Shown here: positions 5,543 through 61,696 of the stretch, one piece after another
How the letters are laid out: the number at the start of each line of letters is the position of its first letter
Numbering within the stretch: position 1 is the stretch's first letter
Source of the DNA: an uncultured Atopobiaceae bacterium
Lineage (GTDB): Bacteria; Actinomycetota; Coriobacteriia; Coriobacteriales; Atopobiaceae
Reading direction: 5' to 3'
Length of the DNA stretch: 62,380 bases
Assembly: GCA_947625235.1 (NCBI GenBank)
Contig: CANQNP010000003.1
Span: forward strand, 1-62,380
Notes under the pieces: model-generated
The model's database searches: none
What the model saw: only the letters and a program-made list of their open reading frames with translations
Told to the model about the DNA's origin: nothing
Position numbers and translations under genes: made by a program

Positions 5543-6574
5543 ATGTGCACTGCTGTCCGTTTCGTTGATAAGGCCGGCAACTTCTACTTCGGTCGCAACC
5601 TCGACTGGGGCTGCGGCTTCGGCGAGCAGGTTTGCATCGTGCCGAGGAACCACCCTTGGAAGAGCGCCTTCTCCGGCGACATGACCACCAAGAGCGCCAT
5701 CGTCGGCTCGGCCGTCGTGATGCCCACCGACGAGATCCCGCCCCTCTTCTTCGACTGCGCGAACGAGGACGGCCTCGCGGTCGGCGGCCTCTCCTTTGCG
5801 GGCTATGCGAAGTACTCCGAGGAAGCCGTGCAAGGCAAGGTCAACGTGGCCACCTACGAGCTCCCGCTCTGGATCCTCACGCAGTTCACCACCGTGGACG
5901 AGGTGGAGGACGTCACGAAGAACATGAACCTCGTCGGCGTGAAGATCGGCGGCATGGATCCCACCCCGATGCACTGGATCGTCACCGACAAGGAGCGCTC
6001 CATCGTCATCGAGCAAACCGAGGCCAACGGCTTCAAGGTCTACCACAACGACTTCGACGTGCTCACGAACCAGCCCACCTTCGACTGGCACATCCAGAAC
6101 CTGCGCAACTACATCAACGTGGACCACGATTGGCACAAGCCCGTCACCTGGACCCGCGGCGAGCTCGCCCCCTACGGCGTCGGCCCCCAGATGCTCGGCC
6201 TTCCCGGCGACACCGGCGCCGTCGCCCGCTTCGTGCGCGCGGCCTACATCAACGCCATGAGCCCGGTCTTCGGCGAGGATGACATCGAGAAGAACGCGAA
6301 CGAGAACATCCTTCGCCTCTTCCACACGCTGAACAACGTGGCGATGGTGAAGGGCATGGGCGCCATGGCCGACGGCTCCTACGAGTACACCGTCTACACC
6401 GGCGGCTACGCGAGCGGCATCAAGACGTACTTCTGGAACACCTACGAGGATCCCACGCTCAACTCCGTCACCATCACTGAGGAGCTCGCCACCGCGAAGG
6501 GCATCCAGACCTTCTCGCCCCGGGATAAGAAGGCTTGGGGCCGTCAGGCTTTCGCGTCGGACGTCTCCCAGTAG
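5543..6574 (+). CDS. Choloylglycine hydrolase family protein (bile salt hydrolase-like)
   Basis: A 343-residue cytoplasmic Ntn hydrolase expected to cleave the amide bond of conjugated bile acids. The nucleophile Cys2 is exposed after removal of Met1 (MCTAVRF). Arg18 and Asp21 lie in FGRNLDW, the oxyanion Asn lies in FDVLTNQPTFDW, and the second Arg lies in ARFVRAAY. DCANEDGLAVGGLSFAGYAKY is very close to bifidobacterial enzymes as I recall them, but the position usually occupied by Asn82 in BSHs (Tyr in penicillin V acylases) is Ser84 here. AAGGAGGAG ends two bases before the ATG at 5543. It ends at a shared terminator facing the acylphosphatase gene. BSH against a related N-acyl amide hydrolase cannot be settled from sequence alone. 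Confidence 0.88.
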   Translation: MCTAVRFVDKAGNFYFGRNLDWGCGFGEQVCIVPRNHPWKSAFSGDMTTKSAIVGSAVVMPTDEIPPLFFDCANEDGLAVGGLSFAGYAKYSEEAVQGKVNVATYELPLWILTQFTTVDEVEDVTKNMNLVGVKIGGMDPTPMHWIVTDKERSIVIEQTEANGFKVYHNDFDVLTNQPTFDWHIQNLRNYINVDHDWHKPVTWTRGELAPYGVGPQMLGLPGDTGAVARFVRAAYINAMSPVFGEDDIEKNANENILRLFHTLNNVAMVKGMGAMADGSYEYTVYTGGYASGIKTYFWNTYEDPTLNSVTITEELATAKGIQTFSPRDKKAWGRQAFASDVSQ

Positions 6575-57441: not shown

Positions 57442-57542
57442 CCCTTCGAGGAGACGCCGCCGTGGCGCGCGCCCCTTCGGCACTGCGCGCCGGCGGCATG
57501 CCCGCTTGGGCCGCGACGTCACGACGATCAGGAGGAGCGATC

Positions 57543-58874
57543 GTGAATCTTCTGAAGAGGAATTGGAAACGCCTTGCGTGCGGCTTGCTCGCCTTGGGAG
57601 TGGTCCTCGCTGCGGTCGTGATGGCCGCCCCGACGCCCGCGCTGGCGGAGGGCGAGGATGAACCGTACGTCCTCACCCCCGACACCCATTGGTTCATCGG
57701 CCAATCGCACCACCGCCAGCCCTGGCCGAACGAAGAAGGTTCGCCTGTGGAGTATCCCTTCACCGTGCAAGAGGAGCGCATGGTGGTCTGGTTCCTCATG
57801 GAGGCGGATGATTCGGACGCGCCCAAGGGCTACGTGCTCTGGCAGCTCTTCAACGAGAGCGGCAAGGAGGTCTTCTCGGCCTACCTCATGGGGTTCGGGT
57901 ACGGCTACGCCACCCAATACTTCGGCTACACCCTCGATCAAGGCACCTACACCCAGAGGCTCACGCAGGTGGGCTGCGAGGGAACGGTGTGCAGCATCGC
58001 CCTCGGGGCCTACACCGATCCGGATGCGTGGATCCCAAGGTGGCCTCCCAAGGCCCAGCAGGTGGGCTTGGATGCCACGGTCACGGGCAAGTTCGACGAG
58101 AGCCATGAGGCCACGGTGGACGGCGAGGCGGCCACGAAGTACTCCAAGCTCTTCAGCTTCGACGTCGACGAGCCCACGAACGTGAAGTTCTCCGCCCCGC
58201 CCTTCTTCGGCGCGACGCAGCTCTCCCTGCTCGACTCCGGGGGCACCACGATCGCGGGCACCACGAGCCCGCATGACGGGTCGCAGAACGCCTACCAAAG
58301 CCTCAGCCTCGACTGCGGCAGGCTCGAGCCGGGCACGTACTACCTGAGCTACGAGACCATCGAGGAGCCCGGCACCAACCTGAACGCCCTCTCCCGCGGG
58401 TTCACCATCTCCGTGAAGACGGGCCACGAGATGTATCGGCTGTACAACCCTTGGTCGGGCGAGCACCTCTACACGCAGGACAGCGCCGAGCGCGACACCA
58501 TGGTTTCGAACGGCTGGAACTACGAGGGCGTCGCATGGTACGCGCCGCTCACCTCGGATTACCCGGTCTATCGCTTCTATAACCCGAACAACGGCGACCA
58601 CATGTACGCGTCCTCTCAGGACGAGTGCGAGAGCCTCGAGGCGAGCGGCTGGCAGAGGGAGGAGGGCGTCGCCTTCTACTCCAACGACGATCCCGAGAGC
58701 ATCGTGCGCGGTGGCGGCGTGACCATCGGCAGGTTCTTCAACCCCTATAACGAGGGCCCCGGCACCCACCACTTCGTGCGCATCGACGCCGAGGGCAAGG
58801 CCGAGTTCTCGCAGATGATGAAGGACGGCTGGAACTACGAGGGCAAGGGCTGGAGCGGCGTCTTCTGGGGGTGA
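57543..58874 (+). CDS. Secreted protein with PPC-like domain and three DUF5648-type repeats
   Basis: A 443-residue exported protein. A basic start and hydrophobic core end at a signal peptidase site after APTPALA. The middle (about 180-285) contains VKFSAPPFFGATQLSLLDSG and LEPGTYYLSYETI, like bacterial pre-peptidase C-terminal beta domains. Residues about 294-443 are three repeats with YRLYNPWSGEHLYT, YRFYNPNNGDHMYA and GRFFNPYNEGPGTHHF, each ending in a GW motif (NGWNYEGVAWYA). Such repeats occur on secreted cell-wall or host-facing proteins. GTG start after AGGAGGAG. There is no enzyme domain or LPXTG anchor. Confidence 0.82.
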   Translation: MNLLKRNWKRLACGLLALGVVLAAVVMAAPTPALAEGEDEPYVLTPDTHWFIGQSHHRQPWPNEEGSPVEYPFTVQEERMVVWFLMEADDSDAPKGYVLWQLFNESGKEVFSAYLMGFGYGYATQYFGYTLDQGTYTQRLTQVGCEGTVCSIALGAYTDPDAWIPRWPPKAQQVGLDATVTGKFDESHEATVDGEAATKYSKLFSFDVDEPTNVKFSAPPFFGATQLSLLDSGGTTIAGTTSPHDGSQNAYQSLSLDCGRLEPGTYYLSYETIEEPGTNLNALSRGFTISVKTGHEMYRLYNPWSGEHLYTQDSAERDTMVSNGWNYEGVAWYAPLTSDYPVYRFYNPNNGDHMYASSQDECESLEASGWQREEGVAFYSNDDPESIVRGGGVTIGRFFNPYNEGPGTHHFVRIDAEGKAEFSQMMKDGWNYEGKGWSGVFWG

Positions 58875-58925
58875 GCCCGCAAGCGGAAGAGCTCGGCGAG
58901 CCTTCTCGCGAGGACAGTGACTGAA

Positions 58926-58962
58926 CGGGGCGGTGCCGGACGCGAATTCCGGTACCGCCCCG
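58926..58962. terminator. Terminator hairpin after the secreted repeat protein
   Basis: CGGGGCGGTGCCGG pairs with CCGGTACCGCCCCG (14 pairs, one G-T) around a nine-base loop containing GAATT. Only a short T-containing tail follows. It also faces the convergent minus-strand gene. Confidence 0.7.
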
Positions 58963-58983
58963 CATTCGTGTGCCGAGCGCGCC

Positions 58984-59026
58984 GCGCCGTGCGGGAGGGC
59001 TCCACCGCGCGCCGTGCGGGAGGGCT
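58984..59026. repeat. 25-base tandem duplication at a gene end
   Basis: GCGCCGTGCGGGAGGGCT occurs at 58984-59001 and 59009-59026, a period of 25 bases. The second copy overlaps the stop codon of the minus-strand hydrolase. It looks like a replication-slippage duplication. Confidence 0.6.
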
Positions 59027-60248
59027 ACACCGAGAGGACCTGCCAGTAGAGCGGTTCCTCGAAGTGCTCGTTCGGCACCCACCACGCCTTGCGGTTCTTG
59101 AGGTCGAACACCACGGAGTGCACCGTCACCACGCCGGGCTCGAGGTCGCCGTGCGTGGCGTTGTAGAGCCGCTGCCCCACGGACTGGAGGATCTCCAGCG
59201 CCGCGCCCTCGTCTGCCACGATGCCATCCGTGGCATCGAGCTCCTCCTGCATGGTGCGGTAGCGCTCGATGCCGAGCATCTCGCTCGTGCTCGTGTAGTA
59301 GCGCGGCTCGCAGAGGATGAAGTTCGTGATGAGCTGGAAGCGCTCCTCACGCTCCTCCTCGCCGAGCACGTAGACCGGGTCCCCGAGGGAGATGACCTTG
59401 AGCTCGCGGTTTGCGTTCACCTTGTCCTCTTCGAGCGTGGGGCTCGTCCACTCGAGGATCGCGCTCTTCCCCGAGGCGTCGGCCACCATGTAGTGGAACG
59501 AGTTGTGCGCCGAATCATGCAGGTCGTAGCGGCCGACGAGCTCGATGGCCTCGTCCACGGTGCTCGCGTAGTCGAGGATGAGGCGAAGCATCGTCGTGGA
59601 GGTGAGCGAGGGCTTGCCCGTGCTCTGCTCGGTGGGCACGGAGTACATCTCGTGGTGCTCGTCCACGCCGCCGCCCTGGAGGCTCATGTAGATGCCGCAG
59701 GCGAGGCCCGCGTCGTTGATGCCGTCGAGCGGCGCGTACGGCGCGGCGAGGATGTTCATGCGATCCATGGGGCCCCGCACGCCCTTCGCGGGATCCACGC
59801 CAAGGAACTGCAGGTCGACGGTGGAAACCGACGCATGGCGGCCGCCGCCGGGATTCGTGCGCACGATGCAGGTGTTCGTGCGCTTGAAGTCGTAGTTGCG
59901 CCCGAAGATCGGCCGACCGTCTTGTGCGCGCGCCATGAAGGACGAGCACGTAATGTCGGATTCCTCGATCGTGGTGGGGATGATGCCCTTGCCGATCTTG
60001 CGGGTGATGAAGGAGATGAGCTCGGCGTCGTTCGACGCGCCGCCCGCTTCGAGGAACTCATCGAAGTAGTACCCGCCGGCGACGTCCATCGTCCACACCT
60101 CGCCGTCATCATGGGAGGGGTTCGCCGGGAAGAGGCGCTTCAGCGTGAAGAGCGATTTGAGTTCGTTGCCGAAGAGCTGCCAGATGGCGGCCGCACCTGC
60201 GGCGACGGTGCCGAGGGCGAGGAACTTGATGAGGGGATGCTTGGCCAT
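59025..60248 (-). CDS. Membrane-anchored choloylglycine hydrolase-related Ntn amidase
   Basis: A 407-residue protein. A single N-terminal hydrophobic helix (LIKFLALGTVAAGAAAIWQL) is followed by a propeptide-like region and then an Ntn hydrolase domain starting at Cys101 (SDITCSSFMARAQDG). Arg117 and Asp120 in FGRNYDF lie 16 and 19 residues after Cys101, the same spacing as Cys2-Arg18-Asp21 in the bile salt hydrolase at 5543. The Cys must be freed by cleavage after Thr100, probably autocatalytic. DLQFLGVDPAKGVRGPMDRM and LACGIYMSLQGG resemble linear-amide C-N hydrolases. It is probably anchored outside the cell and may act on N-acyl amides or bile conjugates; the substrate is unknown. Confidence 0.82.
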   Translation of the reverse strand: MAKHPLIKFLALGTVAAGAAAIWQLFGNELKSLFTLKRLFPANPSHDDGEVWTMDVAGGYYFDEFLEAGGASNDAELISFITRKIGKGIIPTTIEESDITCSSFMARAQDGRPIFGRNYDFKRTNTCIVRTNPGGGRHASVSTVDLQFLGVDPAKGVRGPMDRMNILAAPYAPLDGINDAGLACGIYMSLQGGGVDEHHEMYSVPTEQSTGKPSLTSTTMLRLILDYASTVDEAIELVGRYDLHDSAHNSFHYMVADASGKSAILEWTSPTLEEDKVNANRELKVISLGDPVYVLGEEEREERFQLITNFILCEPRYYTSTSEMLGIERYRTMQEELDATDGIVADEGAALEILQSVGQRLYNATHGDLEPGVVTVHSVVFDLKNRKAWWVPNEHFEEPLYWQVLSV

Positions 60249-60316
60249 GGATGCCTCCGAATGCGCGATGGTGCTCGCGACCGCACGGCGATCGCCCGCC
60301 CTATTGTGGCGCGCGC

Positions 60317-61696
60317 CTACGCGGTGAGCCAGAGGTCGCGGATGAGGGAGTACCAGGGATCGTAGGCCTCGCTCGTGAGGTGGAGGCCGTCCTCGGTGTC
60401 ATTCTCGTCGAGGAGGCCGTCGCTTCCCACGTAGCGCTCGTAAAGGCCGAGGTAGGCGGTGTGGCCACCGAGCTCGGCGGCAAGCTCGGCGAGGTCGCGG
60501 TCGAGCGTGAGGATCGCGGTGTTCTTCCCCGCGTCGCTCGTGGGAAGCACGCTCTCAATCACCACGGTGGCGTCGGGCAGCGCCTCCTCGAGCTTAGTCA
60601 CGATGTCGCGCACGTTGGCCACGACGTGTTCCACGATCGTGCTCGCGGGAGCCGCGTCGTCGTCCAAGTCGTTCGTGCCGACCATCAGGAACACGATCGC
60701 CGGATCCGCGGCGACGACCTCGTCCACGCGCTGCCGCACGCCGGCCGACGTGTCGCCGATGACGCCGAAGTTCCGCACGTCGTAGCTCGGGAAGGCCGCC
60801 TCGAAGTCGCCGCCCTCGGTGATGCTGTCGCCGAGGAAGGCGACGGTCGAGCCCGCGGGCACCTCCTTCACGGCATCGGAGCCGTCGACGAGCGCGGGGT
60901 CGTGGCCTCCGGAGGCAAGCGCGTTCGCCCCCGCGGCATTCGCGTCGGCTGAGCCGCCCGCGCCGCCCGCATCCTCGAGGTCGTCCGTGGCGAGCCCCTC
61001 CGCCACGCCCGCGCCCTCGCCGGCCTCGAGCCCCGCCTCCTCGTTCGTAGGCAGGTTGTTCAGCGGATTCGGCACGTAGGAGAGCACCGTCGCGAGCGCA
61101 AATGCCGCGCTTGCCACCACGAACAGGATGTTCGCGCGCTTCTCCCCGAGCTTTTCGAGCCCGATGGAGATGAGCGGATAGGCGAGCCACACGTAGACGA
61201 CGCACATGACGCCCATCACGAGGTCGTTCACGATCCAGCCCTGGCCGAGGATGTTGCCGGGCAGCTGGGAGTTGTCCCAGAACGGATACACGCCGTTCTC
61301 GTCGGGCTGGTTGCAGATGAAGCCGAAGGCCGTCTCCATGACGGCCGCGAGCGCCGTCGCGATGGCGAACGTCTCGAGCGCCGGGGCCCAGAGGCTCTTG
61401 TGGCGCTTCATCATGTATTCCTTGAGCGGCTCGATGACGAGCGTCATCACCACCACGCCCGAGCCGTAGACCCAGTACGGCTTGAACCACGGGTCGGTCC
61501 AGAGCTCGTAGTTCTCGTCGACGATCCCGAAGAAGCGGTCCATGAACGTGCAGTAGGGGATCTCGGCCCAGTGCCCGAGGATGTTGAAGAGGTAGAAGTT
61601 CACGAAGAGCGAGCGCCAGAAGTCCCACCTGAAGAGGTGGTAGAACCCGTGGGAGTTGATCCCGCGTATCCACTGGCGAAAGCTCATGGTGGCCAT
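60317..61696 (-). CDS. CmpB-like membrane domain fused to an SGNH/GDSL hydrolase
   Basis: A 459-residue protein. Residues 1-210 form about five membrane helices with LFNILGHWAEIPYCTF and WGPALET-like segments resembling the putative type IV ABC-transporter domain (CmpB family). Residues 215-280 are a low-complexity Ala/Gly/Glu linker. Residues 284-459 are an SGNH hydrolase: GDS at 289-291 (nucleophile Ser291), GVIGD, VGTND at 339-343 and DGLHLT with Asp436 and His439. The hydrolase should lie outside the cell. The ATG at 61696 has GAGG only three bases upstream, and 61687 is an alternative start. Deacetylation of a surface glycan or lipid is a reasonable guess only. Confidence 0.82.
   Translation of the reverse strand: MATMSFRQWIRGINSHGFYHLFRWDFWRSLFVNFYLFNILGHWAEIPYCTFMDRFFGIVDENYELWTDPWFKPYWVYGSGVVVMTLVIEPLKEYMMKRHKSLWAPALETFAIATALAAVMETAFGFICNQPDENGVYPFWDNSQLPGNILGQGWIVNDLVMGVMCVVYVWLAYPLISIGLEKLGEKRANILFVVASAAFALATVLSYVPNPLNNLPTNEEAGLEAGEGAGVAEGLATDDLEDAGGAGGSADANAAGANALASGGHDPALVDGSDAVKEVPAGSTVAFLGDSITEGGDFEAAFPSYDVRNFGVIGDTSAGVRQRVDEVVAADPAIVFLMVGTNDLDDDAAPASTIVEHVVANVRDIVTKLEEALPDATVVIESVLPTSDAGKNTAILTLDRDLAELAAELGGHTAYLGLYERYVGSDGLLDENDTEDGLHLTSEAYDPWYSLIRDLWLTA

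Follow-up and report, generated by a model that had tools for sequence, protein, structure and literature searches.

A conserved gene from an uncultured Atopobiaceae bacterium encodes a probable exported Ntn-hydrolase proenzyme akin to C45/AAT proenzymes

The gene at 59025-60248 (minus strand) in the window, by which we mean the whole stretch of 62,380 nucleotides analysed from an uncultured Atopobiaceae bacterium, raises the question of whether it encodes a surface-anchored relative of the bile salt hydrolases (BSHs) with a buried nucleophile, as a first-pass annotation had proposed, and if so which substrates such an enzyme would act on. Translation confirms the proposed reading frame, i.e. 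407 amino acids with Thr100, Cys101, Arg117 and Asp120, and the frame starts with ATG, preceded by GGAGG five bases to the 5' side. A longer antisense frame (58917-60365, plus strand) is unsupported, and both Pfam and the relatives agree with the minus strand. A start codon beside the Cys, as in cytoplasmic BSHs, was rejected because codon 100 is ACG and because residues 27-100 are under purifying selection. The features are as follows, with the supporting data in parentheses.

59025-60248, minus strand: open reading frame for a predicted Ntn-hydrolase proenzyme of the AAT(C45)/CBAH superfamily, 407 amino acids (PF03417, PF02275, C45_proenzyme, AlphaFold2 model, PDB matches)
60171-60224, minus strand: hydrophobic export/anchor segment, approximately residues 9-26, predicted signal anchor or signal peptide (hydropathy, model, relatives)
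59949-60170, minus strand: conserved pro-domain, approximately residues 27-100, putative future alpha-subunit (ten-sequence alignment A1, dN/dS, model)
59946-59948, minus strand: codon for Cys101, predicted nucleophile and predicted self-cleavage point Thr100/Cys101 (invariant in A1, alignment with PVA and BSH, start of the CBAH match)
59028-59948, minus strand: predicted catalytic Ntn domain, residues 101-407, putative future beta-subunit, with C101, R117, D120, N309 and R329 (invariant columns of A1, VIA-align)
5543-6574, plus strand: cytoplasmic choloylglycine-hydrolase-type protein used for comparison, 343 amino acids, no pro-domain (PF02275, 4.2e-84)

The relationship to BSH-type enzymes had been proposed from the spacing of Cys101, Arg117 and Asp120 (+16 and +19), which equals that of Cys2, Arg18 and Asp21 in the 5543-6574 protein, and the residues were verified in both proteins. 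The same pattern arose by chance in 1169 of 100000 shuffles of the 407-residue protein (1.2%) and is present in 5 of the 183 open frames of at least 150 amino acids within the window, too high a frequency for the spacing to serve as proof, and hence the relationship rests on family models, alignment and fold. The comparison protein scores 342.6 bits on the bile_salt_hydro model, just under the cut-off of 350, and carries C2, R18, D21, N176 and R229; its own bile specificity is uncertain since the position of the BSH residue Asn81 (see below) is occupied by Ser, which is neither Asn nor aromatic.

Family models provide decisive evidence for superfamily membership of the 407-residue protein. It matches Pfam AAT (PF03417) with 41.9 bits (gathering score 23.2; E 1.2e-10) and CBAH (PF02275) with 36.9 bits (gathering score 20.4; E 4.2e-9), the latter over residues 101-269 on profile positions 1-159, such that the match begins exactly at the nucleophile Cys101. 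The best NCBIfam model is C45_proenzyme (NF040521), with 79.1 bits (E 3.8e-22) and a cut-off of 85 that is not reached, and the same model is matched at E<=0.001 by all ten members of A1, an alignment of ten relatives used both as a profile and for AlphaFold2. The score on the BSH equivalog NF038245 is 11.7 bits, against a cut-off of 350. A single-sequence search of the PDB revealed no credible relative (best match a sperm protein at 0.0072, a BSH only at 0.29). The A1 profile matches the PVA structure 3pva (E 1.9e-11) and the BSH structure 2bjf (E 6.8e-10), where its Cys column pairs with residue 1 or 2 of the mature PVA and BSH chains, and its sequence similarity to the NAAA beta chain is not significant (E 0.45).

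The AlphaFold2 model generated from the ten-row alignment (pLDDT 86.5, pTM 0.88) comprises a helix at residues 5-35, strands at 37-40 and 51-55, helices at 62-67 and 74-84, and a strand at 100-108 that holds Cys101. As modelled, the protein has the alpha-beta-beta-alpha fold of a Cys-type Ntn hydrolase with the Cys at the start of a core strand. Superposition of the model using VIA-align gave Z values of 20-24 to PVA, BSH, IAT and NAAA structures. The top match was the precursor of isopenicillin N acyltransferase, 2x1c (Z 24.5, 3.3 Å, 267 residues aligned, residues 51-407), effectively tied with the PVA precursor 2iwm (Z 23.9, 2.4 Å, 235 aligned), followed by the NAAA precursor 6dxw (Z 20.7, residues 47-395) and uncleaved acid ceramidase, 5u81 (Z 19.9, residues 43-398). 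The Ntn fold suggested for the protein is thus borne out by the predicted model and its superposition on Ntn structures. Residues 1-100 match no Pfam family at E<=1, and the overlap of the model with the acid ceramidase and NAAA structures starts at residue 43-47.

Six residues, C101, R117, N118, D120, N309 and R329, are invariant in all ten A1 sequences, and among the distinct relatives at the fetched loci the Cys-Arg-Asp motif is kept in 41 of 44, many of the 41 being near-identical sequences from one genus (g40). The exceptions are L015, with Leu for Arg, and L016/L017, in which the N-terminal half including the Cys is absent, and some copies of the family are therefore variant or broken. 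In 40 of the 41, all but L012, which is interrupted by a stop, 63-78 residues separate the end of the hydrophobic stretch from the Cys; the interval from helix to Cys in the 407-residue protein is 75 residues (26-100). Immediately before the Cys, 40 of 41 have a small residue (Ala 26, Gly 10, Thr 3, Ser 1) and the remaining one has Lys. The pro-domain is conserved and of near-fixed length across the relatives, and comparison with the 85% identical orthologue gave dN/dS values of 0.16 for residues 27-100, 0.27 for residues 101-407 and 0.71 for residues 1-26, which indicates that the pro-domain is conserved as strictly as the enzyme. The proposal of an anchored proenzyme whose Cys would have to be freed by a cut after Thr100 is accordingly well supported by family, predicted fold and conservation, with the cleavage itself predicted from sequence and model.

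The proposed membrane helix holds in part, in that a hydrophobic segment is present and a helix (5-35) is predicted, although the segment might instead be a cleaved signal peptide. It is weakly hydrophobic (Kyte-Doolittle mean 1.59 over residues 5-23), AxA-like triplets lie close to its end, and the flanking charges leave the topology unsettled; judging from the weak hydrophobicity and the AxA-like triplets, anchoring is less certain than export. In two relatives, L018 and L073, the hydrophobic stretch terminates in LSGC or LAGC, which we take to be lipoprotein signals (lipobox motif), and these ends support a location outside the membrane.

With respect to bile salts, PMC8066178 gives the BSH set as Cys2, Arg18, Asp21, Asn81, Asn175 and Arg228; in PVA the Asn81 position is aromatic. 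In a profile alignment the Asn81 position (CpBSH) corresponds to Met188 of the 407-residue protein and is Thr in 27, Met in 10 and Leu in 4 of 41 relatives; Asn was found in 0/41, as were Phe, Tyr or Trp. The description as a relative of BSH thus stands as distant homology at the superfamily level, and goes no further given the score on the BSH model and the missing Asn81. Bile-acid specificity is unsupported, the C45/AAT proenzyme models fitting better, and nothing links the protein to bile salts in particular. The protein is well conserved and of a familiar type, common among gut bacteria of the class, and it sits better with the C45/AAT proenzymes than under the label of BSH relative.

The gene stands alone. 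Among the 24 loci examined, its SGNH, dehydrogenase, DUF5648 and aldo/keto reductase neighbours were present only in one near-identical contig (L004, same as L070), and they were not kept at the locus of the 85% orthologue (L005, same as L054) nor at the others. Since no neighbour is conserved, gene neighbourhood was rejected as a clue to the substrate. All-against-all comparison of 22 neighbourhoods gave no neighbour family of note, and neighbours may have been missed because ORF picking dropped the target itself in 8 of the 22 in favour of longer overlapping frames. The upstream gene (60317-61696, minus strand) encodes a membrane domain, PF06541 (ABC_trans_CmpB), fused to a GDSL/SGNH hydrolase, PF13472, to our knowledge an unusual pairing, and the convergent neighbour (57462-58874, plus strand) carries a DUF5648 domain (2e-36).

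On contig C18 the genome encodes a second anchored paralogue (L003 1090-2424; 52-53% identity), with Lys instead of a small residue before the Cys. By protein search, 11 of the 140 genomes from the taxonomic family contain the anchored family, and the A1 profile has matches in 61 of 396 genomes of the class, 53 of them with E<=1e-50 and many from one genus; the eight weak matches were left out, one of which (G272) sits inside a BSH-type gene. A strong CBAH match (E<=1e-40) is present in 179 of the 396 genomes and in 48 of the 53 with a strong anchored-family match, related genomes not being independent and both cut-offs (1e-50 and 1e-40) having been chosen after the lists were seen. It had been suggested that a genome with both enzymes could process conjugated bile acids or N-acyl amino acids on both sides of the membrane: the gene does coexist with that for a cytoplasmic BSH-type enzyme, but the pairing is common in the class and not peculiar to this genome. 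Outside the class, homologues were detected in Catonella morbi (49% identity), a Clostridia MAG (53%) and Enterococcus raffinosus replicons (27-28%), and the public names of relatives are "carcinine hydrolase/isopenicillin-N N-acyltransferase family protein" and "linear amide C-N hydrolase". A 55% identical homologue (L074 5141-5998) lies at the end of an unverified "Bacteriophage sp." record from human faeces (MT837906.1), possibly a bacterial fragment. Among the open-access papers searched, we recognised none that deals with an anchored proenzyme of the C45/CBAH type from Coriobacteriia.

Taken together, we consider it probable, with good confidence, that the gene encodes an exported and probably membrane-tethered Ntn-hydrolase proenzyme that would cleave itself between Thr100 and Cys101 and would act on N-acyl amides outside the cell, either by hydrolysis or by transfer of their acyl group. 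The hydrophobic N-terminal segment would take the chain through the cytoplasmic membrane and probably hold it there, and residues ~27-100 would form a pro-domain that resembles an alpha-subunit and packs on the Ntn core. Cys101, aided by Arg117 and Asp120, would then attack the Thr100-Cys101 peptide bond, and the freed N-terminal Cys would act as both nucleophile and base, with Asn309 as the putative oxyanion-hole residue and Arg329 in support. The cleaved alpha part is expected to remain bound to the catalytic part, so that the enzyme would remain tethered while acting on its substrates. Our best guess as to these, weakly held, is N-acyl amides of a lipid-like or aromatic character, and not bile salts in particular.

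Alternatives that differ in location or chemistry have some data in their favour. A secreted enzyme, with its hydrophobic segment removed as a signal peptide, nothing anchored, and processing and catalysis as above, would account for the AxA-like triplets and the low hydrophobicity of the segment; it is nevertheless rather unlikely, as the segments of several relatives are long and strongly hydrophobic (2.6-3.4) and contain few AxA-like sites, two relatives are lipoprotein-like, and helix 5-35 is unbroken in the model. Some BSHs amidate bile acids, and the protein might, like these or like fungal isopenicillin N acyltransferase, be an acyltransferase and not a hydrolase in life. The first structural rank of the IAT precursor, tied with PVA, and the higher score of AAT than of CBAH among the Pfam matches are consistent with this; we regard it as decidedly unlikely given that the loci examined hold no partner gene or acyl-CoA context and that acyl-CoA would hardly be available to an enzyme whose site is extracellular.

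An extracellular BSH or penicillin V acylase (PVA), which would use the same chemistry but be dedicated to conjugated bile acids or penicillin V, would agree with the A1 profile matches to PVA and BSH structures, with the predicted fold shared with both, and with the gut source suggested by the isolate name, starting with Lapin, of a MAG that holds a 99% match. The low score on the BSH equivalog and the Thr, Met or Leu in 41/41 at the Asn81 position, neither the BSH Asn nor the PVA aromatic by the rule in PMC8066178, make this very unlikely. Least probable is a relative that has an Ntn-like fold but is neither cleaved nor an enzyme: cleavage is something we infer from sequence and model, and single natural variants exist without the Arg or without the N-terminal half, yet the five catalytic residues are invariant in 10/10 and the gene is under purifying selection.

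Activity outside the cell, if the exported proenzyme has it, could allow the family to modify bile conjugates, N-acyl amino acids or signalling lipid amides of the gut. Surveys of BSHs that rely on the CBAH model would group the family with the bile salt hydrolases. A bolder proposal, which we hold to be unlikely, is that the family constitutes a widespread, self-activating, membrane-tethered surface lipid amidase of gut Coriobacteriia, a bacterial counterpart of NAAA and acid ceramidase with a cytoplasmic BSH-type partner inside; if so, host or dietary N-acyl amides would be hydrolysed outside and the BSH-type enzyme would act inside.

Compared with known systems, the protein shares with the C45 family (NF040521; PF03417; isopenicillin N acyltransferase), its best NCBIfam match, a pro-domain followed by the Cys, and differs in falling 6 bits under the NCBIfam cut-off and in having a predicted export helix. 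A distant C45-type relative by name, WP_270225920.1 of Collinsella aerofaciens ("carcinine hydrolase/isopenicillin-N N-acyltransferase family protein"), has 29% identity over 82% of the query. With the choloylglycine hydrolases (PF02275: BSH, PVA) it has in common the Ntn core, the identical Cys/Arg/Asp spacing and the later Asn and Arg, whereas the ~100 residues before the Cys, the predicted export and the Met at the Asn81 position set it apart. According to PMC5915598, acid ceramidase undergoes self-cleavage before Cys143, after which the two subunits remain associated, and it has a helical domain and an alpha-subunit linker that inserts two short strands. The model of the 407-residue protein shows the same layout in outline, two short strands and then helices, and superposes overall on the mammalian lysosomal lipid amidases acid ceramidase and NAAA (Z 19.9-20.7), part of the pro-domain included. 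An alpha-subunit before the Cys and the predicted self-cleavage would be common to them, while the bacterial protein has a shorter alpha part, a predicted membrane helix and no significant sequence similarity to these enzymes.
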